A DNA stretch of 64,000 nucleotides, taken from NCBI RefSeq assembly GCF_003315245.1, contig NZ_QNRT01000002.1, positions 177,245 to 241,244 of the forward strand. The letters are read 5' to 3'. Positions 2,024 to 21,943 of this stretch are shown one piece after another. The notes beneath the pieces were generated by a model. The model made no database searches, was not told where the DNA came from, and saw only the letters and a program-made list of their open reading frames with translations. Both the position numbers and the translations under genes were made by a program. The DNA comes from Arenicella xantha (lineage in GTDB: Bacteria; Pseudomonadota; Gammaproteobacteria; Arenicellales; Arenicellaceae). The first letter of the stretch is position 1, and each line of letters starts with the position of its first letter.

Positions 2024-2057
2024 AGTGCAGAACCCTCTGTTAATTCGGCGATGGATG

Positions 2058-4605: not shown

Positions 4606-4743
4606 CTATTCTAAACCTTCCTCTCTCAAATTTTGCAATGCCTCTTCAGCTAATGAAAAACCTTTTATTTTGAGCTGATTTAATAGTTGTGCTGCCCCAT
4701 CGACATTAATCGAATCGACTTTATCCGATTTAACTGTGGACAT
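4606..4743 (-). CDS. Small hypothetical protein, 45 aa
   Basis: A short frame ATG (4741-4743) to TAG (4606-4608) encodes MSTVKSDKVDSINVDGAAQL and then a helix-like, Glu-rich second half ending LREEGLE. Its stop touches the start codon of the 323-aa gene, as in translationally coupled pairs. Upstream there is no good Shine-Dalgarno sequence, and transposase element copy 3 starts eight bases away, so the gene may have lost its 5' part to the element. The size ratio resembles a toxin-antitoxin pair, but no family is recognised. Confidence 0.45.
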   Translation of the reverse strand: MSTVKSDKVDSINVDGAAQLLNQLKIKGFSLAEEALQNLREEGLE

Positions 4744-4750
4744 CAGACTA

Positions 4751-5290
4751 AGACTAATAGGGACAGGCATAGTAACACTTGAAAAGCACCTTCCAAAATG
4801 TCACTCTAGTCACACAAGGAAACAAACTGCAGTTACGGAATGACTCAACCACGCAACACGCTCGTGTCGGCTACCGACACGCCCTATTACCATTGCGTTT
4901 CACGGTGCGTTCGACGGGCCTTTTTATGTGGCTACGACCAACACACTGAGACCGATTACGAACATCGTCGGCAATGGCTAGAGGCCAAATTGCAACATGT
5001 CGCGACCATCTTTTCGATCAAGCTTTGTGCGTATGCCGTCATGAGTAATCACTATCATGTGGTCGTGCATTTGCGACCAGACGATGCCGCGCAATGGAGC
5101 AAATGTGAAGTGGTTCGACGCTGGCATAGGCTCTTTAAAGGAACTTACTTATCCCAATGCTATTTGACCAGAGACACGCTTTTACCCGCACAAATAGCCG
5201 TGCTTGATCGAGACATCGAAACTTGGCGTGAGCGCCTATGTAGCCTGTCTTGGTTCATGAAAGCTCATTAACATGCCTGTCCTTATTATT
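4751..5290 (+). mobile_element. RAYT/IS200-like element, copy 3 (internally deleted)
   Basis: The left end (TAATAGGGACAGGCAT at 4755-4770), the leader and the first 141 codons match copies 1 and 2. At about 5262 the sequence jumps to TTAACATGCCTGTCCTTATT (5269-5288), which matches the right end of copy 2. Both termini are present but the middle and 3' part of the gene are lost, which is how a MITE-like derivative would look. Confidence 0.7.
4840..5271 (+). pseudogene. REP-associated (Y1/IS200-like) transposase, 3'-deleted copy 3
   Basis: The frame is open from ATG to a TAA created by the deletion junction and encodes 143 residues. The first 141 align without interruption to copies 1 and 2, including the HUH motif SNHYHVVVHL. 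The last residues (KAH) come from the junction. The conserved GHFWESRF half of the domain is missing, so the product cannot be a complete transposase even though the frame is intact. Confidence 0.8.
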
Positions 5291-5509
5291 TACATTTAAA
5301 GTGTCCGTTAAACTATGACAGCTTCAAAAAAGATTCTAGGCGATCAAATTCGTTCTCAAATCAAAACACACAGCCACCGCTGTTTACAAGAACTTAAACT
5401 GTAACTATGAACGTTTTTTAATATACAATCAGTGGCAGCTGTTCGTTACAGTTATTTGGGCCCAAAATGACTGGCTATACTGCCAATATAATAATAAAAC
5501 TCAGAGACT

Positions 5510-6865
5510 ATGACCTTGTATAACATTCCTGTAAAAACAACATTCCTATTATCGTTTTCGTTACTTGCATCCCTATTTCATTTTGCCTCCACGGCTCATG
5601 CTGGCGCATTGCAAGATGCGATTGACAACGAAGTTCAAAAACTTACCGAAGAGTCGGTTGGCAACCTCGAAAAACAAGCGATGGATGCTAGAGTAAAAGC
5701 CACTCGTAGCGCTCTTTTTCCATCGGTAAGAATTAGCGGCACCGAGGCTCAGCGCAGACAGTCGATTCGCGCAGAACAGAACAGCTTGATACTTTCAGGG
5801 GACAACACCTTTGATAATAGGCGCTATATGGCTATTCTCGAACAGCCGCTATTCGATAGAGAAAAAACCAGCGCCTTAGACGAAGCAAAAGTTTACGCCG
5901 AATTTGCCAGCCAAACAGTCGACTTCGAACGCCAACAAGTCATTTCAGGATTGCTAGCTGCATACCTGGAAATTGCGAAAGGCAAAGAAATTGACGAATC
6001 ATTCACTCGAACGTTGACCAATTTAGAACGAGAACATAAATCGGCGCAAAAAAAGCTCGATTTAAAGCTTATTACTTCTGGCCAATTAAATACAATCAAA
6101 CTGCATCTTCTTAATGCCACAAAGAATCGCGACCTAAGTAACTCAGATACAGCAAGAGCAAGATCGTTCATGGACGCACGACTCTTAGGTGGCGCAGCTG
6201 CGATTCCAACCGTAGCCGATAATGCCGACCTACATGCTCTGACGATACCAGCAGAAGACCAACTGTCTAGATCTGACGCGGATATCATTAGCTTGAACAC
6301 CGACATTGCATTACTGAAGGCCAGAGCAAAGAAAGAAAAAGCAAAACGTTTGCCAAAAATCAATTTAGTTGCGTTATATGAATACGATGATGCGGCCGAA
6401 ACGGTATTCGGCGGCCCGAGCCGTATTGAAGATTATGAGGTGGGAATAGTTTTACAATGGGATCTATTCAAGGGCGGTTATTCAAAACATAAGGTCCAAG
6501 AAATTAAGTTTCTACAACGCGCCAAAGAGCAACGCCTCAACGAAGCGCTGGCAGGAGTTAACAGCACATTACTGTCGCACTCTGGCGCATTTCAAGACGC
6601 GCTGGCTCGCTTAACACTTGAGCGCGACATGATGACATTTCGGAAGCAAGTGCTTGACGCAACGGTAAAAGGTTTTAGTGTTGGCGAACAAGATTACCTC
6701 GGTACTATTGACGCGGCACTGTTATACGAAGAAAGCCGACGAAACCAAATCGAAGCCAAATATAAGGTGTTAACCGAATTTGTTGCTGCCCACCGCCTAG
6801 CCGGATCACTTAGCTCTGACGCGGTTCCGCAAATTGAATCACTGTTTGAGCAACAGGTGTTGTGA
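5510..6865 (+). CDS. TolC-family outer membrane efflux protein
   Basis: A 451-residue protein with a signal peptide (hydrophobic LLSFSLLASLFHFAS, cleavage after STAHA). The rest is long amphipathic helices typical of the OEP family: two halves, each with a helical hairpin and a short beta segment (RYMAILEQPLF at about 104-114, and EVGIVLQWDLFKGGY at about 308-322). TolC proteins form trimeric channels across the outer membrane for type I secretion or RND/ABC efflux. No periplasmic adaptor or pump is encoded nearby; the only close gene is the small secreted protein nine bases downstream. Annotated starting at ATG 5510; no strong ribosome binding site is visible. Confidence 0.8.
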   Translation: MTLYNIPVKTTFLLSFSLLASLFHFASTAHAGALQDAIDNEVQKLTEESVGNLEKQAMDARVKATRSALFPSVRISGTEAQRRQSIRAEQNSLILSGDNTFDNRRYMAILEQPLFDREKTSALDEAKVYAEFASQTVDFERQQVISGLLAAYLEIAKGKEIDESFTRTLTNLEREHKSAQKKLDLKLITSGQLNTIKLHLLNATKNRDLSNSDTARARSFMDARLLGGAAAIPTVADNADLHALTIPAEDQLSRSDADIISLNTDIALLKARAKKEKAKRLPKINLVALYEYDDAAETVFGGPSRIEDYEVGIVLQWDLFKGGYSKHKVQEIKFLQRAKEQRLNEALAGVNSTLLSHSGAFQDALARLTLERDMMTFRKQVLDATVKGFSVGEQDYLGTIDAALLYEESRRNQIEAKYKVLTEFVAAHRLAGSLSSDAVPQIESLFEQQVL

Positions 6866-6874
6866 GCAGACATT

Positions 6875-7267
6875 GTGAATAGACAAAAACTTAAAAAATT
6901 GATTGCGGTAACGCTATTCTGCGCGGCGGCGACTGCGTCCGCCGATGAAGCATTGTCAACATTAAGCTTTAATGTTGACAATCGACATGGCAAGGACGAC
7001 ATCACGCTCTTTCAGTGCAGCTCATTGGACTGCAGTGGGCAATCGAAAGAGTTACTCGCCAATATAGCGCATGGACAGTTAGGTGACGGTTGGCCGGTAA
7101 CCACTCGTCATCCGACTCAGCAAGCGGTATTGAAACTATTGCTACAGAATAAAACTGATCAACGCACGTGTAGCGTTACTCTGGGGCAACATGGTCCGTT
7201 CATGCTAATCACGCCTAGATTTGACGACCATGAGGTTAACTGCGATGTCTCGCACATCACTAATTAG
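6875..7267 (+). CDS. Small secreted protein, unknown
   Basis: A 130-residue protein with a GTG start nine bases after the TolC-like gene, so very likely co-transcribed. The N-terminus (KKLIAVTLFCAAATASA) is a cleavable Sec signal. The mature part has four cysteines (FQCSSLDCSG near residues 46-55, RTCSV, and VNCDV near the end), which suggests two disulfides in the periplasm or outside the cell. The family is not recognised. The pairing with an outer-membrane channel makes an exported or periplasmic partner role plausible, but this is inference. Confidence 0.65.
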   Translation: MNRQKLKKLIAVTLFCAAATASADEALSTLSFNVDNRHGKDDITLFQCSSLDCSGQSKELLANIAHGQLGDGWPVTTRHPTQQAVLKLLLQNKTDQRTCSVTLGQHGPFMLITPRFDDHEVNCDVSHITN

Positions 7268-7547
7268 CCCAATTTCGATACAAGAAATACGTCTTTTCGA
7301 CCTGTGATTTGAATTAGGTGTTAAACCCATCGCTTGTTGCGAGCTGTTAGTCAATTCAGCTCTGAGCATTGTTTTACCGCCTTTGTCAGCGCGCCTTATT
7401 AGCTGGACTTGACACCTTTTCGTGTAGTCTAAGCCCATCAGAGCGCGCTAACTGCGGGACGCATCTCAGTACCTCCAAGTACGCCAATGTAAGAAGAAAA
7501 CTGCTTAGGCAGGCACTTGGTTTGCGATGCAGGATTAAATCAAAACA

Positions 7548-9410
7548 TCATAAACAGATTGGACTAATAACGCCTGTGTGAGCCACCTTGATGATAAAAC
7601 ACATTGATTGATCCCGCTCTACTAGCTCATAAATAACACCAGACATTGAGTCTGAAGCTCGGTCGGTATTGGCTGAAATAAAGACCCGCCCGTTTGCCAA
7701 AACCTTAATTGAATGCATTATCTCGATTGAAGATGAACCCAACTTTAGTTCTATTGGCGTGAGCAGGTACTCATCTAAGTCTCCATTGAAATCGACACCA
7801 AGCAACTTTAGGTTATTTTGAGAATCTATCGAGTCTCGCACTCCCACCAACCAATCGAAGTCTTGCCCAGCTAACGTGGTGTTGTCTTTACTCAACGCCT
7901 CCAGAACAACGCCCTGCCCTAGGCTACGATCTATAGCGAGTACCGGTGGTTCATCGCTTGCTTGCGCGTCTCGATTACTAAGATAGCTGTCATCTAAGAA
8001 TCCATTAAAATTGTAACTGTATGTACCTTCGGCTTGGTTCCAGCCATAAAACTGTGCGGCGCTAAGCCAGTTAATTTCATCAATAGCAACCTCACCGAGG
8101 TCTACAACGAATAGAGCACCACTGGGGTCTTGACTAATTTGAGACGGACTTCTAAAGCCATACGCAAAGACCTCTTCAACTAAGCCACTGACTCCCACAA
8201 ATGGATTGTCAAACGGGATGCTGTACTGCCCGTTCGCCGCGGTATGACCTTGTGGGTCAATTCGCAACACTGAGCCCAGAGGGTTGCTTAAATCACTCGC
8301 ATTACCTTCTCCATGACCTCTAACGGTCTGAAAGATTGATCCGTTGAATTCAATAGTTTGGTCTTGATCGCCTTCCGCACCACCATCACCAAACCCTATA
8401 AGCAATGCGCCTGTAGAATCGAAATGCATTGCACCACCATTGTTACCTGCCTGAGGCTGAGCTATGCGCAACAGAGTCCTAGAGCTAAACGATGTAACTG
8501 CCAGATCTGATTGGGCAAGCACTGTCCATTCTGTAACGACATTATTGTGATGCGCGTCAACTCCATTGGGCAAGGTGGTGAAATCAACCGGTACCGCGCT
8601 TAACGGCTCGGTATGAAAAGTATAGAACTTTTTACTAGTGGCGTAATCTGGCGCAAACACCATATTGAGCAAACCGTGCTCAGAGACTCCTTGGCTTAAA
8701 TCTGTTTCAACTAACAACCTTTCAGCAAGCTCTAAACCAAGGTCGATAAATACGCTGGCTTGATTATTGGAGGTATCAAAGCGGGTTATTAAACCATTTA
8801 AATCTACGATGAAAATCACATTTGGCTGGCTTGCCTCAACAACCAAGCCACGTGGCCAACTTAGACCAGACTGCCGGCTCTCTGCTGCCAGCTCGATGGC
8901 ATCGCCGGATAGAGTCAAAGGCACACTAGGATTTAAGATTTTAGCCGGAGGATCTAACAGAGCCACTGACAGGTTGGCTGGTGGCAGTTGATTATTCACA
9001 ACAGAGTGTGAGCCACTGGGCGATCCAAAATAATGGCTGTTTACCGAGCCCTCGCTCCAGCCAGGAAAGTATCCGGCTTGAACCTCGGTAATATTACTAG
9101 AGCCAGACTGATTTTGATCTGAATTCTCTAAACCAGCGAAATCAAAAGCATAGTCTAAATCAGACACGTCAAAGGGTCGCCGTGACTCGAGCAATTCAAA
9201 GACTTCCCAACCATAACTATTCCAGCCGTTGGTGGAACCGCCCGCTGGTGATACATGGCAGATTTGGCAAGCTGCTTGGGATTCGCCAATGTCCGTGAAT
9301 TGCGCATAGCGGGCATTCCAGCGCTCAAGAAATGAGCCCATGGCATATGCCCCTTCCGCGCTGACACCTTGAATCGCTATACAAACAACTAGCCAAAAGC
9401 AAACACGCAT
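7548..9410 (-). CDS. Haem c / glucose-sorbosone dehydrogenase-like secreted protein
   Basis: A 620-residue protein with a signal peptide (cleavage near GAYA), then a single c-type haem site CQICH at residues 48-52. From about residue 170 it has a beta-propeller of the glucose/sorbosone dehydrogenase (GSDH) family: GLLNMVFAPDY, GAMHFDSTGALLIGFGDGG, AYGFRSPSQIS and YGWNQAEGTY. Known relatives oxidise sugars or aldoses with PQQ in the periplasm, so the haem site could pass on electrons; the substrate here is unknown. The C-terminus, SMCFIIKVAHTG then VISPICL, resembles that of the Delta-60 protein at 15161. It is the last gene of a three-gene operon, 15 bases after the DUF1501 gene. Confidence 0.75.
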   Translation of the reverse strand: MRVCFWLVVCIAIQGVSAEGAYAMGSFLERWNARYAQFTDIGESQAACQICHVSPAGGSTNGWNSYGWEVFELLESRRPFDVSDLDYAFDFAGLENSDQNQSGSSNITEVQAGYFPGWSEGSVNSHYFGSPSGSHSVVNNQLPPANLSVALLDPPAKILNPSVPLTLSGDAIELAAESRQSGLSWPRGLVVEASQPNVIFIVDLNGLITRFDTSNNQASVFIDLGLELAERLLVETDLSQGVSEHGLLNMVFAPDYATSKKFYTFHTEPLSAVPVDFTTLPNGVDAHHNNVVTEWTVLAQSDLAVTSFSSRTLLRIAQPQAGNNGGAMHFDSTGALLIGFGDGGAEGDQDQTIEFNGSIFQTVRGHGEGNASDLSNPLGSVLRIDPQGHTAANGQYSIPFDNPFVGVSGLVEEVFAYGFRSPSQISQDPSGALFVVDLGEVAIDEINWLSAAQFYGWNQAEGTYSYNFNGFLDDSYLSNRDAQASDEPPVLAIDRSLGQGVVLEALSKDNTTLAGQDFDWLVGVRDSIDSQNNLKLLGVDFNGDLDEYLLTPIELKLGSSSIEIMHSIKVLANGRVFISANTDRASDSMSGVIYELVERDQSMCFIIKVAHTGVISPICL

Positions 9411-9425
9411 ACTTGTTGTTACAGC

Positions 9426-11162
9426 CTAAACGTTGCTTTTAAATAAATTATCAAACAATTGCGCTTGTTCAAGAATCGGCGCTTCGCCGGTGTAGTCAGG
9501 CGCGACACGCGGGAACACTACACTTCCGGACGTTGGCGCAATCGCTTCACATACGGATGCAAATAAGTGATCAAACTCGGTGCGCGGCGTGATATCTGGC
9601 GTGAATAATGCAGCGTCGGTGTATTTAGCAATCTCGTCATCTTGAAACAATTCGCCGTAAACACCACCGTTTACTGATTCACCAAATACCAACATAATAT
9701 TCCCAGCACCGTGATCGGTACCTGAATCACCATTATCTCTAATCTGGCGACCAAACTCTCCTGCCGCCACAAACACGAGGTTTTGCTTGGTAGTTGAGTC
9801 TAAGTGTTTCCATAATGCCGATAGCCCGTAATGCAATTCAGCACCAAGCTCATCTTGCGGCCCACCAAACACATCTTGAAATGCACTTTCAATGCCACGA
9901 TTAATATATGGGTCCTGCAAATCAGGTACATCCATGTTCTTTCTTTGCTGCGAATGACTGTCCCACTCGAGCGTGTATTGCAACGAGGCTACTTTCAAAT
10001 CCAGCAAACAGTTTGCAGCCAGTACATCGTATAAATTACGAATTTGCTCGCCCCATTTTTGATCAAAACAAACATGCCTGGCAACGCCGTTAACGTCATC
10101 ATTGAAGTCATGGGTTGGAAATTCTTCCGCGCTCCCCATTGGGTCTTTGCTTCGATCTAACGTGGGAGCATACAGAGCTCGTATCTCATCAGGCACATTG
10201 AAGTTGAGCTGGGTACTCATTTGCTGTCCCAACACGCGCAACCGCTGCTCGTGGGCTAACGGTTTATCATACTGTTGATTAAGGGTTTCCTGCTGCAACG
10301 ACCCGTAGTAACTCTTGAGGGTTCGAGCCAACGCAAAGTCGGCTCGATTTGACTGGTCTTGATCTAAATCGTGCTCACGTAAACCAAGATCACGTGAGTT
10401 ACGAATCGCTACTAAATTTGAATTGTCGATCAAATTTGGCTCGTAAACAGGTGAGGTAACTGGCCCAAAAGTAAAAGGGCTCGGTGTCTCGGTTAGTGCG
10501 ACGCTGGCACCGCCAGCCGCTGTTGCAAGACGACCTCCCCAACCAGAGCGACCTCCGTCATCGACATTCGAAAGTATGTTTCCCTGATCTAATTGAATGA
10601 CCGCGTGGTCATGAGCGCGATGAGTAGCGCCGACCATATTTGCACAGATAGCAACCTTGCCTTCTTTAAACATTCTGATCAGCCAGCCAGCACCATGCCA
10701 AATTCCAAACTCAGTGGTTGAGGAACTGGGGCCAACATAGATTGGATCTCCCACATTATTGGCAGTAGTAGCAAACGTGGCTGTATCAAAATGTTCGTAA
10801 TGATCATTCCAGCGTGCACGCCAGGCGGCTTCTTGGGCAATAAGGTGAGCGTCATCCGATGCAAAGCCGCCACGAGCAACTTCGGTACGATGCGCACGTG
10901 AACGATATTTCCAGTACAAATATGCAAAGCTAGAACGCTGCTCGGTTGGCACCAGCACGCCGTCTACCCCAGGCATACCCGGCACTATAAAGTGACGAAA
11001 ATCTGGGCCACCACCTAACATGATGTTGATCAATGCTCGTTGATTTAAAGGCTCAAAACCACTACCAACACAACCAGCAGCGCTGGCACTTTGCGAAAAT
11101 GACGGAAGCGATGCAGCCGCTAAGGCAGCCGCGAGGCTTTGAATAAACTCTCTACGTTTCAT
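9426..11162 (-). CDS. DUF1501 family protein, Tat-exported
   Basis: A 578-residue protein. The N-terminus MKRREFIQSLAAALAAASLP is a twin-arginine signal (KRREF), implying export in folded form. DUF1501 proteins belong to the sulfatase/alkaline-phosphatase-like group; visible family features are GGPDFRHFIVPG, HRAHDHAVIQ, GGRLATAAGG, AAGEFGRQIRDNGDSGTDHG and FGESVNGG. Their biochemical role is not established. The start codon overlaps the stop of the DUF1800 gene by four bases (ATGA), so translation is coupled. DUF1800 and DUF1501 are recurrent neighbours in many bacteria. Here they are joined by a haem/GSDH protein, suggesting one exported system. Confidence 0.85.
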   Translation of the reverse strand: MKRREFIQSLAAALAAASLPSFSQSASAAGCVGSGFEPLNQRALINIMLGGGPDFRHFIVPGMPGVDGVLVPTEQRSSFAYLYWKYRSRAHRTEVARGGFASDDAHLIAQEAAWRARWNDHYEHFDTATFATTANNVGDPIYVGPSSSTTEFGIWHGAGWLIRMFKEGKVAICANMVGATHRAHDHAVIQLDQGNILSNVDDGGRSGWGGRLATAAGGASVALTETPSPFTFGPVTSPVYEPNLIDNSNLVAIRNSRDLGLREHDLDQDQSNRADFALARTLKSYYGSLQQETLNQQYDKPLAHEQRLRVLGQQMSTQLNFNVPDEIRALYAPTLDRSKDPMGSAEEFPTHDFNDDVNGVARHVCFDQKWGEQIRNLYDVLAANCLLDLKVASLQYTLEWDSHSQQRKNMDVPDLQDPYINRGIESAFQDVFGGPQDELGAELHYGLSALWKHLDSTTKQNLVFVAAGEFGRQIRDNGDSGTDHGAGNIMLVFGESVNGGVYGELFQDDEIAKYTDAALFTPDITPRTEFDHLFASVCEAIAPTSGSVVFPRVAPDYTGEAPILEQAQLFDNLFKSNV

Positions 11163-13582
11163 TGCGAAGCCTCCGAAGAAATGTTCTCGTCACCAAACAC
11201 GAATGGCGTTGCAAATATGAATGATAGAGCATGGTTAATACGCTCATTTGCATAGCGGCTCACCTGCCCTTCTTCGCTACCTAATGGCAGCTCCGTTTGG
11301 TGTAACTGATCTAACAATGCCTGTATCGTCGGATCGTTACTGATTTCGCTAGTGGTAAACTGCCTATTTAGCCATTCTTTTTCCTGAGTTGAATACCCGC
11401 CTTGATGAGAACAGTAGTTCAAGTCTGACAAAATATCGTTGATTGTCGCGACACTCTGATTATTGGCAATACGGTCTTCACGCATGCACAACAGATAAGC
11501 TAGATCATAAAAACGATCGTTATGTCCAACGTCATCGCTGATCGAGTAGTATCGCGTAGCCGCTAATAGAGGCAAAAGATGCGCCTCTTCAAGGTCTGTA
11601 TAATCGTCCAAATCACCTATCGTATGCTCCCACAACCATCTGGCTACATGCCCGGCTGGGTAGGTTCCATTGACGCTAGGAATCACTTTTCTCCAATCCT
11701 TTGCCCAGCTATCGCCAGCATCGCAATCATTACAATAAGCGGCATTTCGGAACTGCAGCGACTGATCAGTCGCGCGATTGTAGTTATTAGCAAAGATCGC
11801 TACTGAGTCAGCCGCTTCTTTGGGAGTTTGCCCACCAAACACATTGTGCTCGGGCCTAAATACATCGACTAATTCATCATCAGTAATTATATCATCAAGC
11901 GGACGCCCAACACTGCCGCCGTTGCGGTATGAATAGAGTGCTTCGATGTTATCAATATTAAAACGGTTAGCTTTGTAGAAAGCTCTCTCAAAGCTTGTCA
12001 ACGAGCGACTTTGTAATTCGTCGTGCAACAACGATGAGGTGGCGTACGCACGGATGAACTCTAGGAAATTTTTATTGCTGCCCATGCTTTGCCATGCCGC
12101 TCGCAAACTAATTTTCTTGTCTTCATTCAGCGTGTCATCAGCTAATCCTTCAACAATCATAACGGGCAAGTTTTTAAGACTCTCGACATGCTCAATAGAG
12201 CGCATCATCAAGTTATCGATTTTCTCTGACGCACTCGCACCAGAGACCTGCGTGTCATAAACGTCGGATGGATTGAAGATAGTTAGAGTTGGAACATGAT
12301 GACTGTTAGTGCCGAAGTTAACAAACCGCGGATTTGCCGGCCCCACTGACATATCAGTAAGCATCTTGCTAGTGTTCTTAATGGTTACATTTTCATGATA
12401 GCTCGGGTCGCTAACACCAAAGATACCAAAATAGAGTTGGTGAATCTCGCGCGCAAAATCATCATTACAAAAACAAATTCCATTAAAAAAAACGCTGTTT
12501 TCATGCCCGTATTGAACCGCCACCGCCGAAGTCTTAGCCGCCAGCGCAAGCACTTGTTCATAACTAGCGCCAGACTCATGCGCCTCCATAATGACATCGT
12601 AATAATGGGCCATCTGAGTCGTGCTCACGGTCGCGTCTAGAGATAATGCCAAATGATAGTTAGTTTCCCAAAACCCAATGCGCTGCCGGAACGGGTTTAG
12701 GCCTCTAATAGTAGACATAATGTAGAAGCTTTCTTCTAGATTTTGACCCAGCAGCCTAAAGTGGTTACGAACACTGTAATCCATAGGTAGGTTAGGAAAC
12801 GACTCTAGCCCCATGTAGTTGTCGGCGAATTCCACCAACGAAGCAAACTGAGTTGCAGCTTCAGGGTAACGTTCCCCAGGGATTAGCGGCGAAAGCTTTG
12901 AGTTATGTTCGTCAAAGTTCAACATCTCTTGGATCGCTACTTCGGGCAACATATTCGCCCAAGCCACAATTTGACTGTCGAAGGCTTGCCCGCCAAAAGC
13001 GAATAGCTTCAACACTTTGCGAACAGCTCGAACGTCCCAATCAAGGCGGTTAAGCCGCGGCAACTGCAAATCGAATTGCTGTGTTACTAGATCAACATTA
13101 GTAATCGTGCCGCTAGTCTCTGATTGATTTTCCAGCACCACGCTATTAGAGCCTACCAACAAACTAGCGTCTAACTGAATGCAGTACTCGCCCTCTCCTT
13201 TTAGCAAAAATGCATCCTGTTCAACGCCATTCAATGTCAGTACGAAAGCGCTCGGATCATTACTCTGATTTAAAGAATAGGCAAAACAAAAAACGGCGGA
13301 CTCATTTGACTCCGGAAATACCTTAGAATATGGCTCGTCCACGGTGTACACGTTTGCATCGAGCACGTTGAGCGAAGCCGTTGGAGTAACCGAAATAGTC
13401 TCATCGTTTATGAGCAATGATAAGATTGCCGGCATATAGCCTTTCGCATCAGCCGCGGCATGAGCAAAACCGCTTGGAGAAAACAGACTCAACCCCCAAA
13501 CTAGAAACACCGACAACAGTTTGACCCTGATTTTCAATAGTTTTGAAACTAATGAAGTCGAATTATTAAGTATTATTATCAT
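11159..13582 (-). CDS. DUF1800 family protein
   Basis: An 807-residue protein beginning with a basic and then hydrophobic segment (LLKIRVKLLSVFLVWGLSLF, with likely cleavage after FAHA) that should direct Sec export. The first 170 residues form a beta-rich module with two cysteines (VFCFAYS, EYCIQL). The DUF1800 region follows from about 175: LNRLDWDVRAVRKVLKLFAFG, REIHQLYFGIFGVSD, LHDELQSRSLTSFERAFYKAN, and a C-terminal LIFATPFVFGDE-like end. DUF1800 is found paired with DUF1501, and its role is unknown. First gene of the operon; a Shine-Dalgarno sequence is not obvious before the ATG. Confidence 0.8.
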   Translation of the reverse strand: MIIILNNSTSLVSKLLKIRVKLLSVFLVWGLSLFSPSGFAHAAADAKGYMPAILSLLINDETISVTPTASLNVLDANVYTVDEPYSKVFPESNESAVFCFAYSLNQSNDPSAFVLTLNGVEQDAFLLKGEGEYCIQLDASLLVGSNSVVLENQSETSGTITNVDLVTQQFDLQLPRLNRLDWDVRAVRKVLKLFAFGGQAFDSQIVAWANMLPEVAIQEMLNFDEHNSKLSPLIPGERYPEAATQFASLVEFADNYMGLESFPNLPMDYSVRNHFRLLGQNLEESFYIMSTIRGLNPFRQRIGFWETNYHLALSLDATVSTTQMAHYYDVIMEAHESGASYEQVLALAAKTSAVAVQYGHENSVFFNGICFCNDDFAREIHQLYFGIFGVSDPSYHENVTIKNTSKMLTDMSVGPANPRFVNFGTNSHHVPTLTIFNPSDVYDTQVSGASASEKIDNLMMRSIEHVESLKNLPVMIVEGLADDTLNEDKKISLRAAWQSMGSNKNFLEFIRAYATSSLLHDELQSRSLTSFERAFYKANRFNIDNIEALYSYRNGGSVGRPLDDIITDDELVDVFRPEHNVFGGQTPKEAADSVAIFANNYNRATDQSLQFRNAAYCNDCDAGDSWAKDWRKVIPSVNGTYPAGHVARWLWEHTIGDLDDYTDLEEAHLLPLLAATRYYSISDDVGHNDRFYDLAYLLCMREDRIANNQSVATINDILSDLNYCSHQGGYSTQEKEWLNRQFTTSEISNDPTIQALLDQLHQTELPLGSEEGQVSRYANERINHALSFIFATPFVFGDENISSEASQ

Positions 13583-13842
13583 ACGACAATTGTAGCCGAC
13601 TTTATGCTGGGAGCATTAACGAAAGCAACGCCTAATCAACGTTGCTGGACACATGCTTTTTAGTCACACACACATAGCTAGACACATGACTACCTCTGTA
13701 TCATTTTAGCGGTGTTATTGAAAATTCCCACACGACTAACTTTGAAAGAATCGAGTTTTGTCTGAAACCTGAGCTAGTCAAACAAAAATAGAAATCGACT
13801 TTGCTGGAGTGCGCATCCATTTCTACACTCCTTAATAGCAGG
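13583..13842. other. Intergenic upstream of the DUF1800 operon
   Basis: This stretch must hold the promoter of the minus-strand DUF1800 operon and the downstream region of the cupin transcription unit, which also runs on the minus strand. It is AT-rich with no ORF. I could not settle a convincing -35/-10 pair. Confidence 0.4.
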
Positions 13843-13896
13843 TAAAAAATAAGCCCCAGAAAATGTAGCTAACAACGATTTCTGGGGCTTAAAAAA
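13843..13896 (-). terminator. Rho-independent terminator after the cupin gene
   Basis: AAGCCCCAGAAA at 13851-13862 pairs with TTTCTGGGGCTT at 13879-13890 (12 bp, loop of about 16). Read on the minus strand, the stem is followed by ATTTTTTACC, a proper T-run, 18 or more bases after the cupin stop. The plus side has AAAAAA before the stem when read in that direction, so it mainly serves the minus-strand transcript. Confidence 0.8.
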
Positions 13897-13914
13897 CTTA
13901 GCTATTGCTAAGCA

Positions 13915-14340
13915 CTACGCACAACTACACTGATAGCAGTAACACATTGTTGCGCCCTGCGGTCCCACCTCAAACTCATAACCAGCGCCGGCAGGAATAT
14001 ACATCCAGTCACCTTGAGTTAATTCGACATCCCCGAAATGGATAGACCCACTTATCATAAACCGGATACCAGCGCCCTCATCATGGCTGTGTTTCGGCAC
14101 CTTGGTATAAGGCGCTCCGGACGAAATATACATTGTTGATGCAGACTCGAAATACACCGGTAGTAAGGTTTTGGTGAATCCCTTTGGAACGTTATCTACC
14201 GCTAGCGCTTTGTACATTAACTTTCTAATCTTAGGCTGACGAGAGTGCACGATTTCGCGAGAATTGATGCCTGCTTCCTTTTGCATCGATAGTATATTTT
14301 CAATACAACTCGCGAGTGTCGATTGGTTTGGATTAAACAT
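13915..14340 (-). CDS. Cupin-domain protein with Cys-rich C-terminal tail
   Basis: A 141-residue protein. Residues of about 78-130 form a small cupin barrel: motif 1 with H84, H86 and D87/E88 (KHSHDEGAGIRFMISG) and motif 2 GDWMYIPAGAGYEFEVG. The protein ends MCYCYQCSCA, placing C133, C135, C138 and C140 in a CxCxxCxC array directly after the barrel, which is unusual and suggests a second metal site or a modified tail. The start is well supported by AAGGAG eight bases upstream. It sits behind a 32-aa ORF and a possible 25-aa ORF and before a strong terminator, forming its own short transcription unit. Cupins bind metals and range from enzymes to sensors; the role here is unknown. Confidence 0.75.
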   Translation of the reverse strand: MFNPNQSTLASCIENILSMQKEAGINSREIVHSRQPKIRKLMYKALAVDNVPKGFTKTLLPVYFESASTMYISSGAPYTKVPKHSHDEGAGIRFMISGSIHFGDVELTQGDWMYIPAGAGYEFEVGPQGATMCYCYQCSCA

Positions 14341-14355
14341 TTTAATATCTCCTTA

Positions 14356-14433
14356 TTAATTGGTAAAACTTAGACAAAACCAAGCTCCAACCCGACAACA
14401 CATTCCTTTGAATTTAACGTCAGCTAAGTTCAT
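14356..14433 (-). CDS. Possible 25-aa Cys-containing peptide
   Basis: The frame MNLADVKFKGMCCRVGAWFC plus five residues ends 15 bases before the cupin start codon. It has three cysteines. No good Shine-Dalgarno sequence precedes the ATG (an AAGGAG lies 42 bases upstream, too far), so this may be non-coding leader. It is listed because it adjoins a protein with a Cys-rich tail. Confidence 0.2.
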   Translation of the reverse strand: MNLADVKFKGMCCRVGAWFCLSFTN

Positions 14434-14489
14434 TATCCATAAACCTATCCATAAACTTAGCTATACCAATCTGTCTCCTTAGCCCACCG

Positions 14490-14588
14490 TCATTCAGCTT
14501 GACTGAGAAAGGTGGAAATAGACATACCCAAACCTGTAATCAAAAATGCATATATCACACTTGGTCTACTCTTAAGTGCGCCAAACAT
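14490..14588 (-). CDS. Small hydrophobic peptide, 32 aa
   Basis: ATG at 14586-14588 is preceded by GGGAGGAA at ideal spacing, a very strong ribosome binding site. The peptide begins MFGALKSRPSVIYAFLITGL and ends with SISTFLSQAE: a short basic start, one hydrophobic segment and a polar end, resembling either a single-pass membrane peptide or a bare signal peptide. It lies about 150 bases upstream of the cupin gene in the same direction, after a candidate promoter, so it is likely the first cistron of the unit. No family recognised. Confidence 0.45.
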   Translation of the reverse strand: MFGALKSRPSVIYAFLITGLGMSISTFLSQAE

Positions 14589-14662
14589 CCAATTCCTCCC
14601 ACTACTTAGTTTTATTATCGCATGATAAATAGCCGTGCATAAAAGCCAGCTCCACTAGAACG

Positions 14663-14691
14663 ACTTATGACGTAGTCTATTTTGGTGTCAA
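14663..14691 (-). promoter_or_regulatory. Candidate sigma70 promoter of the small-peptide/cupin unit
   Basis: On the minus strand, TTGACA (14686-14691) is followed by a 17-base spacer and ATAAGT (14663-14668), which would start transcription some 65 bases before the 32-aa ORF. The -35 is perfect but the -10 is poor. Confidence 0.35.
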
Positions 14692-14816
14692 AACCCTTAG
14701 TTTCATCGGCTCTTCAACGCCATAATTTCTTTAGCCCTCGCGTTGCTTGCGCTCATAAAATCCCAAACTAAGCTCAAAAATATTGCGAAATTAGACGAGT
14801 GGATGGGGAGTCGACT

Positions 14817-14876
14817 TTTCTTTAGTGTGGCTGTCCTCTTCAGGATGTCTTTAGGATGGCTGTCCATTTCTATTAA
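14817..14876. repeat. Two REP-like remnants (TGGCTGTCC type)
   Basis: TTCTTTAGTGTGGCTGTCC and, 30 bases on, TTAGGATGGCTGTCCATTTC share their core with the motif at 3434-3465 and resemble the right ends of the RAYT elements. They lie in the otherwise gene-free stretch before the Delta-60 gene (about 14590-15160), where I see nothing else apart from the cupin-unit promoter. Confidence 0.45.
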
Positions 14877-15160
14877 CTCACCCTACTTTTCGCCAAATTG
14901 GTAGGACGGCTCACCCATAGAAATTGACAGACAGGGAACCTCACCGTCGATTTGAAAAATAGGTACCTATACTCATGTACAGGGTAAATGACTGCGCTAG
15001 GATAAATTCTGGTCTATCTACATCGCAGCGCTGGCTGTTGTTTGTTTGCAGCTCAAACAGCATTTCACTGGAGCCATTATTGAATGACATATCTCACTTC
15101 CCCTAACTTACAACAATTTGAATTAACTTGAAAAATTACGATATTGATAATTGGATCGAC

Positions 15161-17713
15161 ATGCTGCCATCGACTTGGGTCTTTAGACAGACACATCAAG
15201 CGATAAGGCTAATGGCAGTGTTTCTAGCGCTGACGATTAATTGTTCGGTACACGCTCTATCTGGCGGTGATGCTGAAGACGGCTTTCAAGCATTCGCGAA
15301 CTACACAATAAATTCAATTGCCATACAGCACGACGCTACCATTGTGCTCGGTGGAGCGTTTTCGACTATAAACGGCTTCTCGCGACCTGGTTTAGTGCGG
15401 CTCCACCCTGACGGCAGCCTTACCACCAACCCAGGTGCAGACGCGCCAATACTCGGCGTTGCTGTACAAGCAGATAACAAAATACTTATCGGAGGCTTAT
15501 TCACTAGTGTTGGTGGTGTTGAGCGCGCGGGCATTGCTCGGTTGAATGCGGATGGCACACTCGATTTAAGTTTTAATCCAGGTGCGGAAGGTGCCACTGG
15601 TTCATTTGCTTTTCTAGAGAATGGACAAATTATGGTAGGTGGTTTATTTAGCAGTATTGCCGGTGTTTTGAATAATAATATTGCGCGTCTAAATATGGAC
15701 GGCAGCATTGATTCAACGTTTCAAGCAACTACCGATGGCGCCGTGCGAAGCATAATTCAACTACCCGATGGAAAAACACTGATCGCGGGCGAATTCAGCA
15801 CCGTTAATGGTGAAAGTAGACGCGGTTTAGCACGCCTTAATGCAAACGGTTCTCTAGACCATCAGCTGAATGCAAACTTAGATGATGATGTATTCGCAAT
15901 GCAGCGTCAGATTGATGGAAGCATCATTATTGGTGGTCGCTTTACCCAAGTTTTCGGCGCTATTAGAGAAAGGTTAGCTAGAATAAATGACAACGATTTA
16001 CTGGATGCTAGTTTCGATCTACAGCCCGACGATGAAGTTAGAAGCATAGCAATACAAGACAACGGCGCCATTATTATCGGAGGCATGTTCAACTCTGTTT
16101 TTAAACCAGGCGTTGGGGTCACCGCGCGGAATCATATTGCCAAAATCACTAACTCGGGATTTCTTGATAGCAGTTTTGTTCCTAATGCAGACGGTGATGT
16201 GTTGGCCCTAGCACTACAACGCGATGGCAATATTCTTGCTGCCGGTCATTTTAATAGCGTGAATGGCTACAGTCGACCTTATATAGCCAGGCTCTATCCA
16301 AATGGCATCGTAGACCAAGACCTTATTGCCGATACAAATAGCAGTGTGCATGACCTCGCTGTGCAAGGCGACGGTAAAATAATCGTGGCAGGAAATTTTT
16401 CAAGCATTGGTGGGATTACAAAGGACAGGGTCGCGAGAGTTAATCAAGACGGAACCATAGATTCCACTTTTAGCGATCCAAATGTCAGTGGTTTTGTTTT
16501 TACTACGGCTATACAGCCTGATGGAAGGATTTTGATTGGTGGAAATATTGAAAGTGTAGATGGGACGACACGAACAAACATTGCTAGGCTTTTACCGAAC
16601 GGTGATCTAGATCCAATGTTTGATCCAAATGCAGATAATTCAGTGCTTGGCTTTGGCCTACAGAGAGATGGAAAGATAATCGTAGTTGGCCGTTTTGAAC
16701 ATATCGGTGGTGTTGAGAGGCACAGCATTGCCCGGTTGAATGCCGACGGCAGTATTGATGGCGCATTCAATCCAAATATAAATAACAGTGTTTCTGGCGT
16801 CCATGTCAGAGATGATGACAAAATGTTGGTAATTGGGGGGCTATCGAATATAGGGGGACAGCCCGTTTCCGGGATTGCACAGCTGAATCCGGATGGAAGC
16901 TTAGATACGTCATTTACCTCTCCATCAATATTTAGTATTGATACTATGGCTGTTCAGAAAAATGGAATGGTTGTAGTCGGCGGTAGATTCAACTCTGTTG
17001 GAGGAATTGCCAGGAACCGTTTAGCTCGATTTGATATAGATGGCAGCCTTGATATGACCTTCGACCCTGATGTCGATATGTCGGTGACAGCTCTGTCTAT
17101 TCAACCCGATGGTATGATTCTAGTCGGCGGGCGCTTTTCAAGCATTGGAGGTACGTCAAGAAGCATGCTTGCTAGGCTATTTCCAGATGGATCGGTTGAC
17201 CCAAATTTTGACCCCAATGTCGATAACACGGCTGAAGGCAATGAGACTATATCTTCAATTTTGTCGCAACACGACGGCAAGATTTTGATCGGTGGAAACT
17301 TCTCACAAATCGGGGCTAATAATAGAGAAAATTTAGCTCGATTAACGCCTGGCACACCAGCGCAACAGAGTCTTGATGTACTTCAGGACGAAGGTTCAGT
17401 TTTCTGGCATCGAACTGGATCAGGGCCTGAATTGAGCGACGTGCGATTTATGATTGAGTTTTTAGACGATGGTAATGTTGAAGACCTAGGGTTAGCCACC
17501 CCTGTTGATGGCGGTTGGCAAATAAGTGGAATCTCATTACCTGAAGAACGGCTATTTTCATTACATGGCATGGGTAGTTATGGCACCCGAAAAAGTAGTC
17601 GTGGTTCTAGTTTGCACAGTGAAAAAATATTTTATTTAGAACCACTCCCTGATGACTCCATGTGTTTTCCAATCATTGCAAGTAATGCAAAAATTGCAAT
17701 GATTTGTTTATGA
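15161..17713 (+). CDS. Delta-60 repeat beta-propeller-like secreted protein
   Basis: About 850 residues, mostly 13-14 tandem copies of the Delta-60 repeat: each has DGKILIGG-like and FSSIGG-like segments followed by R..IARLN.DGSLD..F. Such repeats form extracellular beta structures of unknown function. The open frame extends to a TTG at 15128, but ATG 15161 gives a plausible signal peptide (RQTHQAIRLMAVFLALT, cleavage near SVHA); ATG 15212 with TAAGG upstream is a third option. After the repeats comes a C-terminal domain of about 110 residues ending DDSMCFPIIASNAKIAMICL, similar to the tail of the haem/GSDH protein at 7548. It stands alone and is not obviously in an operon. Confidence 0.85.
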   Translation: MLPSTWVFRQTHQAIRLMAVFLALTINCSVHALSGGDAEDGFQAFANYTINSIAIQHDATIVLGGAFSTINGFSRPGLVRLHPDGSLTTNPGADAPILGVAVQADNKILIGGLFTSVGGVERAGIARLNADGTLDLSFNPGAEGATGSFAFLENGQIMVGGLFSSIAGVLNNNIARLNMDGSIDSTFQATTDGAVRSIIQLPDGKTLIAGEFSTVNGESRRGLARLNANGSLDHQLNANLDDDVFAMQRQIDGSIIIGGRFTQVFGAIRERLARINDNDLLDASFDLQPDDEVRSIAIQDNGAIIIGGMFNSVFKPGVGVTARNHIAKITNSGFLDSSFVPNADGDVLALALQRDGNILAAGHFNSVNGYSRPYIARLYPNGIVDQDLIADTNSSVHDLAVQGDGKIIVAGNFSSIGGITKDRVARVNQDGTIDSTFSDPNVSGFVFTTAIQPDGRILIGGNIESVDGTTRTNIARLLPNGDLDPMFDPNADNSVLGFGLQRDGKIIVVGRFEHIGGVERHSIARLNADGSIDGAFNPNINNSVSGVHVRDDDKMLVIGGLSNIGGQPVSGIAQLNPDGSLDTSFTSPSIFSIDTMAVQKNGMVVVGGRFNSVGGIARNRLARFDIDGSLDMTFDPDVDMSVTALSIQPDGMILVGGRFSSIGGTSRSMLARLFPDGSVDPNFDPNVDNTAEGNETISSILSQHDGKILIGGNFSQIGANNRENLARLTPGTPAQQSLDVLQDEGSVFWHRTGSGPELSDVRFMIEFLDDGNVEDLGLATPVDGGWQISGISLPEERLFSLHGMGSYGTRKSSRGSSLHSEKIFYLEPLPDDSMCFPIIASNAKIAMICL

Positions 17714-18107
17714 TGAGGTTATAGCGAGCTCTGACAGTCGGCTTTCTAGCCCATACCGGACATGAGCCCATTCGCTAGCAAAACAGCATAAAATGAATTA
17801 TCTCACCCGAGAATTGGTACTAAGTTTGGGGAAAGGTCAGATGGAAGATGACCTAAAGAAAGCAAGGTGATAGCGAAGGGGTCGATGCAGGAGCGTATTC
17901 ATCGCTCCGCACGACCGCAACGCTATCTTTGATACCTTGGAGTTCTGACAATAACTGTATGCACGATATGCAGAATTTCAAACCCGATCTAGCGAAGTAT
18001 GTAAGGAGGTTTCACTGCTCTATGAAAGTCGATTTTTTGCCCAAAGCGGTCAGTTAAGAGCTAACCAACCGGTGAACACAAAGAGAACGCTTTAATCAAT
18101 TAAATCA
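17714..18107. other. Intergenic between convergent genes
   Basis: About 390 bases between the Delta-60 gene (plus) and a membrane protein gene (minus). No ORF with a ribosome site, no clear terminator with a T-run and no repeat shared with the rest of the window were found. Confidence 0.45.
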
Positions 18108-19572: not shown

Positions 19573-20025
19573 TTAGGGCGCTAGACCATTCTTATTAGCT
19601 ACCGTTTTAATCTTGCTTAACAGGTACTCCTCAAGCGCGGGGGCTTCGAATCTTGAGGTATCTGGCACCACAATCATGTAAACATATCTAACGTCAAAGT
19701 TCTCCCATTCATGTCTAAGTTTGCAGGTAGTTCTAAGTTTGTCTGCATAAGTGCAATAACTATTCACTCTATAGCCTAGCCCATTTCCCATGGATGCTTT
19801 GCCGATATAGAAAACTTCAAGGCTCGATGTCAAAAAAGCATAGACACCCGCCTCATCAAGGTACGGCCATGGATCAACCCATGTAGAACCAACAAGACTA
19901 GATGCGCCCGATTTCTCAGGAAAGAGATCAATCAGCTCGCTCCTTTTAAACGCCTCTAAACTCGAATGTCTATAAGTCTCACAATAAATATCAACGGCTG
20001 CATCTAAATCATCTAAAGTCATCAA
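19573..20025 (-). CDS. GIY-YIG domain protein
   Basis: A 150-residue protein. GVY at residues 60-62 and YIGKA at 73-77, followed by R86 and a late ALEEYLLSKI...NKNG, fit the GIY-YIG nuclease fold (the glutamate in LEEYL would bind metal). The first 55 residues are not recognised. It is the outermost gene at the left end of the island, 49 bases downstream of the integrase. It could be a homing-type or defence nuclease, or a DNA-binding relic. Known families UvrC and homing endonucleases share only the core motif. Confidence 0.7.
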   Translation of the reverse strand: MMTLDDLDAAVDIYCETYRHSSLEAFKRSELIDLFPEKSGASSLVGSTWVDPWPYLDEAGVYAFLTSSLEVFYIGKASMGNGLGYRVNSYCTYADKLRTTCKLRHEWENFDVRYVYMIVVPDTSRFEAPALEEYLLSKIKTVANKNGLAP

Positions 20026-20074
20026 TTATCCACCTCATAGTAAAATCAAAATACTAGCATGGCGAATCCCCAGC

Positions 20075-21172
20075 TCAAACAACGCTCTGATTTCTTATTT
20101 CCAGCGCAACTGCTCTCGCCAACTCCTGAACATGGTTCGGCTCTTCAGCCTGCGGGTTTCTAAATTGTTCAAAAATTTCCGATTGTTTTTGAGGTTGCAC
20201 CTCACCGTAACTCATGAAGGTAGTCAAAACCTTCGTATGCCCAAGATTTTGGCTCCATGCCTTGAATTGTTCAACAGTGTTACAACGCTGTTCGCCAAGT
20301 GAGGCAAGAGTGTCCCGAAAACTATGAGGATTGAAGTAATCTAAATCGGCTTGAGTGAATGCCTCTTTGAAAATATCGCGAATTGGATTAGTTGTTGTCC
20401 AGTGCTCTCTTTTTAGGCCACTTGCTTCAAACTGCTGTTGTTCGTTTACAATCATTCTAGTTTTAGGAAATAAGGGGTCATCGTTGCCGAACAGCGCCTC
20501 AGACCTCAGGTAGTTAATCCAATCGGCCACAATCCCGATAATATCCTCACCCACAGGGAAGAAGTAGCTAGTAAAGGATTTGCTAAACTTGGTATCGACT
20601 TCTCTTGCGTCCTGAATTACACGCTGACCTGCCAAGTCGACGTGCTTCAACTTCATTGATGCTATCGCGGCATCACGAGCGCCTGACAATAGCGTGAAGG
20701 CTATAAGCGCCCTATTTCGACGCTGTATAGGCGTGCTTACTTCCATCGAATCGAGAACGTGCCGAATTTGTTCTATGGTTGGCGCTAGCTTTTCACGACG
20801 AGTCGTGGCTATTCGGGCGTCTTTGGTTGATAGGTTGAAATATTCCATATCACCATATTGAAGACTAGACTTATATCCAGTTTGCTGGCACAACCACTGA
20901 AAAAATGATTTAACATGCCTGAGCGTAGTGTGTAGTGTAGACCTGCTAAGTGGTTTACCGGTCGACTTATTGAGTTGTTTTGCTAAGTGGGCTTTAAAGC
21001 CTTTTGCCTGTTGGTAATGAAACTTCTTAAAATCACCGTTTTTTATGTAATCCTCAAACCGACTAAGAGCCATCGCGACGCCATCGACAGTGGCGGAGTT
21101 TTGGCCCTTGGCATCGCTTAGAAATGTGAAGTATTGACGCTTGATACGCTCGTTTTTTGCATTGTGTTTCAT
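20075..21172 (-). CDS. Tyrosine site-specific recombinase (second integrase)
   Basis: A 365-residue protein. The N-terminal SAM-like core-binding domain spans about 10-115. The catalytic domain has R166 (LLSGARDAAI), H283-x-x-R286 (NPHSFRDTL), H312 (LGHTK) and the nucleophile Y322 (FMSYGEV), so all catalytic residues are present. It differs from the P4-type integrase at 28863, having no DUF4102 arm domain. Its neighbours, an HTH/zinc protein and AlpA upstream, suggest it belongs to its own recombination module, either a nested element or an excision system. Confidence 0.85.
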   Translation of the reverse strand: MKHNAKNERIKRQYFTFLSDAKGQNSATVDGVAMALSRFEDYIKNGDFKKFHYQQAKGFKAHLAKQLNKSTGKPLSRSTLHTTLRHVKSFFQWLCQQTGYKSSLQYGDMEYFNLSTKDARIATTRREKLAPTIEQIRHVLDSMEVSTPIQRRNRALIAFTLLSGARDAAIASMKLKHVDLAGQRVIQDAREVDTKFSKSFTSYFFPVGEDIIGIVADWINYLRSEALFGNDDPLFPKTRMIVNEQQQFEASGLKREHWTTTNPIRDIFKEAFTQADLDYFNPHSFRDTLASLGEQRCNTVEQFKAWSQNLGHTKVLTTFMSYGEVQPQKQSEIFEQFRNPQAEEPNHVQELARAVALEIRNQSVV

Positions 21173-21236
21173 GGTGTATTTATCTCTTAGTAAAAGTAAC
21201 TGTATTAAGGGGGTTGGTATTACCTACCTATGTGTT

Positions 21237-21653
21237 TTAGGCCTCTCTTACAGTCACCTCCAATTTACGTCGAAGTTCAGGCAAAGTATTTACGCTGGAG
21301 ATCTTATTGAGCAGGGTTTCGCACACAGAGCAAATTGCGACTAATCTCCCGGTAGTTTGGTTTATTGGAGCAAATTCGACCATATCGCCGTAAGGTGTTC
21401 GTGGTTGTCGGCATTTCAAGCAGTACAGCTCATGTAACTCACAAGGCTGCTTCAATCGCTTGTTTTTGGTCTTTAAGTAATCCCTTAATTGTTGACCTTG
21501 CACGCAGATTGGGCGCAAGCCATCAATCGGCCTCAATCCATCTTTTAGCCATGCCCGCACAGTGCCTTTGAAAACACCAAAGAGCGTGGCGATCTCTGCA
21601 ACGGAATAGCTATAGTGAATTTTTGCTAGATTTGGATTGTAGCGTTTAGCCAT
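21237..21653 (-). CDS. HTH and zinc-ribbon-like regulatory protein
   Basis: A 138-residue protein. Residues of about 16-60 read as a helix-turn-helix with AlpA/MerR character (VAEIATLFGVFKGTVRAWLK). Two CxxC pairs follow (CLKC at about 78-81 and CSVC at about 108-111), which would bind one zinc. Its ATG overlaps the stop of alpA by one base (TAATG), so the two are coupled. It is probably a DNA-binding accessory of the neighbouring integrase. Confidence 0.6.
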   Translation of the reverse strand: MAKRYNPNLAKIHYSYSVAEIATLFGVFKGTVRAWLKDGLRPIDGLRPICVQGQQLRDYLKTKNKRLKQPCELHELYCLKCRQPRTPYGDMVEFAPINQTTGRLVAICSVCETLLNKISSVNTLPELRRKLEVTVREA

Positions 21654-21847: not shown

Positions 21848-21904
21848 CGTTGAACCTCATAAAGGTAATTAGGATGACTGTAAGGCTATGTGTAATGTCC
21901 ACAA

Positions 21905-21941
21905 CTAAGGACTAACTAGGTTTTAGGATTCCTAATTAGGT
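21905..21941 (-). promoter_or_regulatory. Operator-like repeats upstream of alpA
   Basis: On the minus strand AACCTAATTAGG is followed after about 20 bases by AACCTAGTTAG, two direct copies. The first contains the perfect palindrome CCTAATTAGG (21931-21940). A related AATTAGGAT occurs nearer to the gene (21866-21875). This placement fits autoregulation or promoter binding of the alpA module. Confidence 0.5.
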
Positions 21942-21943
21942 TG

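Follow-up and report, generated by a model that had tools for sequence, protein, structure and literature searches.

The 64,000-nucleotide stretch of the Arenicella xantha genome analyzed here (the window; contig NZ_QNRT01000002.1, positions 177,245 to 241,244) encodes two proteins that end in similar tails (Table 1). The first is a glucose/sorbosone dehydrogenase (GSDH) with a CQICH motif near its N-terminus, which is signal peptide-like as judged by eye. A fold search with the AlphaFold2 model of this protein returned HHIP and PQQ sugar dehydrogenases. The second, a delta-60 beta-propeller, is listed from a TTG codon, and a signal peptide-like stretch near 15212 suggests a later start. The positions of both reading frames and their tails in the original prediction were borne out. 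The two protein ends are 55% identical, and 14 residues separate the cysteines in the GSDH and 13 in the delta-60 protein, the range of 13 to 14 that had been predicted. An S-M-C-F pattern had been predicted as well; the paired cysteines of this pattern recur in the tail family described below, but the S-M before the first cysteine is not conserved. With its 14-residue cysteine spacing and without the proline of the consensus, the window GSDH tail is an atypical family member.

The tailed GSDH gene lies in a trio with a DUF1501-like gene, whose product has a twin-arginine-like N-terminus (MKRREF..., by eye), and a gene for an 807-aa protein, which we take to resemble DUF1800. In the own genome this trio occurs at three places, and one more lies in locus L112; the neighbors were recognized by eye, and within the trio only the GSDH carries a tail. 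Elsewhere in the window, direct repeats spaced 2.05 to 2.7 kb apart occupy the left edge, and an island-like stretch lies to the right of the tailed genes.

Table 1. Coordinates of the window features and of features in other loci named in the text
Sequence	Feature	Position	Strand	Evidence and remarks
Window	Three near-identical 300-base direct repeats	4-303, 2058-2357, 4751-5050		95-98% to reference
Window	Second repeat pair	419-718, 2474-2773		92%
Window	Trio (DUF1800-like, DUF1501-like, tailed GSDH)	7548-13582		Neighbors by eye
Window	Tailed protein 1, GSDH (PQQ-type glucose/sorbosone dehydrogenase), 620 aa	7548..9410	-	PF07995, E = 2.9e-23
Window	Tail of protein 1, DQSMCFIIKVAHTGVISPICL	7551..7613	-	Profile match; stop codon 7548-7550
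Window	DUF1501 protein, untailed	9426..11162	-	PF07394, E = 1.7e-10
Window	First gene of the trio, untailed, 807 aa	11159..13582	-	No Pfam match
Window	Tailed protein 2, delta-60 (DUF5122) beta-propeller, 861 aa	15128..17713	+	PF17164, E = 1.9e-147; TIGR02608, E = 1.4e-81
Window	Tail of protein 2, DDSMCFPIIASNAKIAMICL	17651..17710	+	Profile match; stop codon 17711-17713
Window	Island-like stretch	19573-30300		Names by eye
Window	Integrase-like ORF	20075-21172		By eye
Window	Type I restriction system	about 22930-28673		By eye
Window	HsdR-like type I restriction subunit	23420-26005	-	Name by eye; cysteine-rich repeat run (CxxCxxxPCxC-like) after helicase-like part
Window	Second integrase-like ORF	28863-30062		By eye; adjoins tRNA-Leu
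Window	tRNA-Leu	30214-30300
L103	Trio	5998-17961		Neighbors by eye
L112	Trio	23-5191		Neighbors by eye
L101	PD40 propeller gene with tail, reading frame split in two (overlapping)	5867-7569
L252	Second type II-like set	2292-11585		E, F, pseudopilins, K, L, M, secretin; by eye

The similarity of the two ends goes beyond chance, as the tail belongs to a larger family in the own genome and in relatives. In the own genome (4.44 Mb, 29 contigs), a profile built from the two window tails only (A1) gave 10 nonseed matches at E <= 10. Seven of these (six long ORFs and one 20-aa remnant) end their reading frames, with the stop codon at the match end or one residue later, and A1 holds no stop information; the remaining three are not at frame ends and look like chance matches. 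Later profiles were built from 8 and then from 39 tails (A3). The 8-tail profile brought further own-genome tails, and A3 gave 12 matches in this genome at E <= 1e-4, namely 11 long ORFs and the remnant; weaker tail remnants were seen in very short or interrupted frames. Among the collected loci, all 47 distinct A3 matches of at least 20 bits (39 seed tails and 8 nonseed matches) have a stop codon at the model end, in four cases one residue later. The chance of a stop for all eight nonseed matches is about (3/64)^8 = 2e-11. None of the three A3 matches that score below 10 bits lies at a stop codon. Searching the genome and its relatives, the check put forward with the original prediction, thus returned many more tails, and the tail is not limited to two proteins.

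The consensus consists of an acidic stretch and a hydrophobic residue followed by C-[FVL]-P-I-[KR]-x(6)-[VI]-A-[VL]-[IV]-C-L-stop, which gives a tail of about 17 residues. Both cysteines are present, 12 to 14 residues apart, in 46 of the 47 distinct A3 matches that reach 20 bits. The sole match without the first cysteine (L101) comes from a gene with a broken reading frame (Table 1), as expected of a decaying gene. Residue frequencies were taken from 68 distinct tails gathered with a text pattern in which the first position must be C or R, the second-to-last C and the last L, I or F. The pattern thus presupposes some of the consensus, and variants such as the L127 tail escape it; the counts of signal peptide-like starts, terminal basic residues and hydropathy given below also concern tails gathered in this way. 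The cysteine spacing in this set is 13 residues in 64 tails, 12 in two and 14 in two. Positions -4 to -2 before the first cysteine are mostly D or E, and position -1 is L, I, M, F or V in 65 tails. The first cysteine is followed by F, V or L (62 tails), P (63), I (57), K or R (49) and A, T or S (61), then by a variable turn that often contains N-G, and finally by V, I or L (57), A, V or S (65), V, L, M or I (61) and I or V (64). The final residue is L in 63 tails, I in four and F in one.

Tail sequences also end very short frames (20 to 56 aa) in L107, L110, L046, L241, L242 and L240, and these resemble the leftovers of tailed genes that have decayed or shifted frame. A CFV-type subgroup (CFV[TV]..., ending VVTFCL) was seen in L076, L109 and L111.

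Two genes with the same end, these ends lying about 10 kb apart, could also result from a DNA repeat or mobile element that duplicated a common gene end. When compared within the tails, identical residues share the same codon in 133 of 332 cases (0.40, against 0.394 predicted from usage), and all three stop codons occur among the 11 own-genome tails. Codon sharing at the level expected from usage indicates that the tails are conserved as protein and not as copied DNA. We therefore discarded a DNA-repeat origin on the codon and stop-codon comparison; its probability is close to negligible.

At E <= 1e-4, the tail was detected in 21 of the 109 genomes of the order. It is present in all 18 genomes of the genus Arenicella and in none of the three genomes from other genera of the same family. 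Among the 91 other genomes of the order, three carry it: G028 (family f9, genus g11) and G442 and G445 (f9, g23). An even sample of the class (369 genomes) contained five genomes with the tail, four of the genus and one outlier from another order, G183, whose tailed protein ends VMCFPIVARPGKIAVICI; that order comprises two genomes, one of them with the tail. Named records with a tailed GSDH came from three Arenicella MAGs and from Proteobacteria bacterium UBA7415 (L142-L145).

The 11 own-genome carriers span unrelated folds. They comprise three GSDH proteins, two DUF5122 propellers, two PD40 propellers, an M12 reprolysin-like protease with thrombospondin type 3 repeats, an M36 protease, a protein with choice-of-anchor Q and no Pfam match, and one protein without any match. 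Carriers in other genomes include a GDSL esterase fragment, a subtilase, an M12 protease with choice-of-anchor D, a beta-helix with choice-of-anchor Q and a GSDH with a laminin-G-like domain; the Pfam scan gave no match for the tailed loci L113, L115 and L043. The carriers fall into different Pfam families, in line with the predicted difference in fold. A larger shared domain, which had been named as the finding that would speak against a tag, was not seen, as a variable linker precedes the tail on these different families. Among complete tailed ORFs longer than 100 aa, 39 of 42 have a signal peptide-like start according to a crude hydropathy rule applied without a control set. Two of the three exceptions (L131 and L062) have damaged starts, and the third (L053) has no such explanation.

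The behavior of the tail within protein families was most apparent for GSDH. An alignment of 19 GSDH sequences, in which the 18 others are 28 to 34% identical to the window protein, shows no variation at Cys604, Cys619 and Leu620, and the linker upstream of the tail varies in length and sequence. There are 24 GSDH matches in the genus; two are cut by contig ends, and all 22 with a complete C-terminus are tailed. The two GSDH matches in other families are both untailed, and one GSDH-domain protein outside the genus is tailed (L238, in the tail-bearing genome G442). From 80 GSDH loci of named genomes, 26 were chosen by hand for inspection of their C-termini: four have the Arenicella-type tail and the other 22 are untailed. 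Judged by eye, homologue L175 has a PEP-CTERM-like end, L180 (Flavobacterium) a T9SS-like end and L146 a helix with RR. The tailed M36 protease scored 434, 287 and 82 bits against the myxosortase-, rhombosortase- and T9SS-dependent M36 models of NCBIfam, far below their cut-offs of 1500, 1700 and 885, and is thus a relative of these families named after sorting tags, not a member. Choice-of-anchor Q was found above cut-off in the tailed L108 and L111, and choice-of-anchor D in the tailed M12 protease L239.

Among the general marks of C-terminal sorting signals, for which we used the criteria given in the excerpted text of PMC3237569, the tail has the C-terminal place, the signal peptide on its carriers and the suffix behavior, including a swap in homologues. 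We are highly confident that the tail is a modular C-terminal suffix in the slot of known sorting signals. This supports the predicted processing, anchoring or secretion tag, a function that we infer. The data establish a family of modular tails with paired cysteines, located exactly at the C-terminus of cargo with signal peptide-like starts.

None of the 69 listed tails (one of which is an antisense false match) contains K or R in the last six residues, and a 19-residue hydropathy of at least 1.6 within the last 60 residues was reached in only 4 of 62 tails. As a helix-length hydrophobic stretch is rare, the tail has no transmembrane anchor of the kind found in CTERM tags, and, with neither transmembrane helix nor basic end, it does not have the tripartite build of the known CTERM tags. 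The analogy to PEP-CTERM and GlyGly-CTERM in the original prediction therefore holds for the slot and the suffix behavior but not for the tripartite architecture. The residue pattern would suit a strand-turn-strand hairpin closed by a disulfide. In the AlphaFold2 model of the window GSDH, strands 604-608 and 615-619 follow the last strand of the preceding domain at a pLDDT near 40, so that the hairpin shape is only a hint.

A disulfide-closed hairpin could also serve as a local structural cap that guards the C-terminus from proteolysis or pairs protein copies, without any sorting machinery. The paired cysteines and the hairpin-like pattern would agree with such a cap, as would the fact that the carriers look exported and would meet proteases. 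We nevertheless consider a cap unlikely, because the tail sits in the slot where homologues carry sorting tags and is found in few lineages, yet on many unrelated folds. Moreover, a hydrophobic last strand and the final leucine are conserved along with the cysteines, and a generic cap would not need them.

The cysteines could have a different role if the tail were a processing or lipidation signal, in which one of them would accept a lipid or undergo transpeptidation and the remainder of the tail would be cleaved off, as proposed for MYXO-CTERM. An invariant cysteine is a MYXO-CTERM feature according to the excerpt of PMC11980579, and the mostly acidic stretch and single hydrophobic residue ahead of the first cysteine would be compatible with this reading. 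However, the tail has no basic cluster, and only rarely the helix-length stretch, for holding a precursor in the inner membrane. The joint retention of both cysteines also fits a pair better than a single acceptor, and we regard a lipidation signal as quite unlikely. Nonpolar C-termini are also bound by PDZ-type proteases, and the tail could mark proteins for periplasmic quality control or degradation by such an enzyme, which we consider very improbable. Nearly every tail does end in three hydrophobic residues, but the sequence requirement extends about 17 residues upstream, PDZ ligands are shorter than that, and a permanent degradation tag on secreted enzymes is implausible.

NCBIfam and Pfam scans of the 39 tails gave no model above cut-off. 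Isolated weak matches involved two families in NCBIfam, two in Pfam and three in PHROGs, with one member each; PF09989 matched one tail at 15.2 bits (cut-off 29.4). A comparison of the tail profile with solved structures (PDB) returned five chance-level matches. The best of these is a GAF domain segment of phosphodiesterase 2A, LCFPIKNENQEV, which is like the first half of the tail. We rejected this segment as a relative, as it reflects a common sequence pattern with no evident ancestry (E = 0.67). The titles and abstracts of the searched literature on sorting tags, the CFI-box and tail strings contained no description of the tail. Within these models, titles and abstracts, the predicted lack of a described system with this exact pattern was upheld, and the tail is a real, lineage-restricted, paired-cysteine C-terminal tag that has apparently not been described before.

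The CFI-box (NF041763) is likewise a short putative sorting motif, with weak local resemblance to the CFV-type tails L076 and L109. Its model has 14 positions and matched one of the 39 tails at 13.5 bits; no tail reaches its 15.9-bit cut-off, and none of the 18 genus genomes exceeds it. Among the 30 CFI-box loci retrieved, only L076 (genome G015) holds a tail, which is of the CFV type. On this resemblance, the CFI-box and the CFV-type tails could be distantly related. That the tail is a member of an already modeled sorting motif (GlyGly-CTERM, PEP-CTERM, MYXO-CTERM or the CFI-box) is extremely improbable. The place in the protein and the kind of cargo are the same, and NF041763 touches one of the 39 tails and, below threshold, the L076 tail. 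Yet every CFI-box match is below cut-off, the tripartite architecture is missing, and rhombosortase fails to reach its cut-off in the own genome, as in all but 4 of the 21 tailed genomes of the order.

Comparison with the individual systems shows where the tail departs from each of them. The Flavobacterium GSDH homologue L180 has a T9SS-like end in the same slot (by eye), but T9SS C-terminal sorting domains are whole folded domains of Bacteroidota, whereas the tail is a 17-residue two-cysteine segment. The excerpt of PMC3237569 also separates the Por (T9SS) signal from the tripartite tags by its architecture. PEP-CTERM/exosortase (TIGR02595) shares the slot as well, as judged by eye from the PEP-CTERM-like end of GSDH homologue L175, but the tail has no PEP motif, helix or basic end. 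GlyGly-CTERM/rhombosortase (TIGR03501/TIGR03902) resembles the tail in occupying about 20 terminal residues of signal-peptide proteins with unrelated folds, and within a protein family it can stand in for other sorting signals (excerpt of PMC3237569). In Vibrio, GlyGly-CTERM is linked to type II cargo and confers membrane association, with a second secretion signal still required (excerpt of PMC13393428). The tail differs from GlyGly-CTERM in that it has no Gly-rich motif, transmembrane helix or basic cluster, and in the scarcity of rhombosortase among tailed genomes. TIGR03902 was found above cut-off in 7 of the 109 genomes of the order, four of them among the 21 tailed ones, and the best match in the own genome reached 52.4 bits against a cut-off of 84. 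Rhombosortase was therefore ruled out as the partner of the tail. MYXO-CTERM/myxosortase (TIGR03901) shares an invariant cysteine with the tail, and among the M36 models the myxosortase-dependent one gives the tailed M36 protease its highest score. The available part of PMC11980579 gives an invariant cysteine, a type II route and a lineage-wide expansion for MYXO-CTERM. MYXO-CTERM is built of a signature cysteine, a helix and an Arg-rich end, whereas in the tail two cysteines bound a short segment that ends the protein. We conclude that the tail functions like a CTERM tag, yet is outside the described CTERM families.

The presence of the tail was compared with that of type II secretion. At E <= 1e-60, 19 of the 21 tailed genomes of the order contain GspD, compared with 27 of the 88 without tails (Fisher test with kinship ignored, P = 5.6e-7). 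The test overstates the evidence because 18 of the 21 tailed genomes belong to one genus. Above the curated cut-off, the counts are 18 of 21 and 23 of 88. Within family f9, GspD was found in all three tailed and in 5 of 21 untailed genomes (P = 0.028). The outlier G183 also has GspD, so that 20 of the 22 genomes with tails contain it. In the tailed genome G009 (85% complete) no GspD was found, G005 (82% complete) has only a 137-position GspD fragment, and G001 has a partial GspD under the curated cut-off. Type II secretion is not sufficient, as is evident from the 27 untailed genomes with GspD. Judging from these genome contents, tailed cargo probably needs type II secretion plus some further reader. 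For the co-occurring component of the original prediction, the analysis thus gave only a correlation with GspD and type II secretion; no dedicated membrane enzyme was identified and rhombosortase does not fit.

Inspection by eye of tailed loci in the own genome, G014, G015, G028 and G183 revealed no shared neighbors except the trio beside GSDH, no neighbor common to tailed loci of different lineages, and no gene that would be a dedicated partner of the tail. No obvious extra gene was seen by eye in the type II gene clusters of G028 and G445. A second type II-like set is present in the own genome (L252; Table 1), separate from the gspDEFG cluster in L250.

We propose that the cargo would enter the periplasm via its N-terminal signal peptide and then fold. 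The two tail cysteines would form a disulfide and thereby close a short beta-hairpin of one strand (C-[FV]-P-I-K), a turn and a second strand (V-A-V-I-C-L), in which the hydrophobic last strand ends at the carboxyl group. A putative dedicated component would recognize this hairpin, and the cargo would be routed through type II secretion or be kept at the cell surface afterwards. A tag that cooperates with type II secretion has precedent in Vibrio GlyGly-CTERM and in MYXO-CTERM, as far as the excerpts of PMC13393428 and PMC11980579 describe them.

The steps of this proposal differ in strength. It is likely that the tail sorts, secretes or retains proteins, whereas we see evenly balanced chances that it does so together with type II secretion and via an oxidized hairpin. 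Taken as a whole, a disulfide-closed hairpin that tags type II cargo for sorting or retention is the explanation toward which we lean. Only tentatively, and with doubt prevailing somewhat, do we suggest a new class of sorting signal, in which a disulfide-closed C-terminal beta-hairpin without transmembrane anchor or sortase-type protease would be read in its oxidized state by a periplasmic or outer-membrane receptor and would direct cargo to type II secretion or to the surface. In simpler terms, the tail probably acts as an address label, so far undescribed, that marks proteins for secretion or for the cell surface, because marine Arenicella bacteria have the same tail on many unrelated exported proteins, at the place where other bacteria carry sorting tags.

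C-terminal tags have been a key to whole processing systems, since one tag defines a list of cargo and its distribution points to the enzyme. Exosortase and rhombosortase were discovered via their tags (excerpt of PMC3237569). The tail described here combines a tight consensus with a cargo of seemingly extracellular enzymes. As it has no helix of the kind used in sortase-like systems, its reader should be of another type. How type II secretion recognizes its cargo has long been an open question. With a short, portable tag on cargo of the type II kind, this recognition would become testable by means of a reporter fusion.
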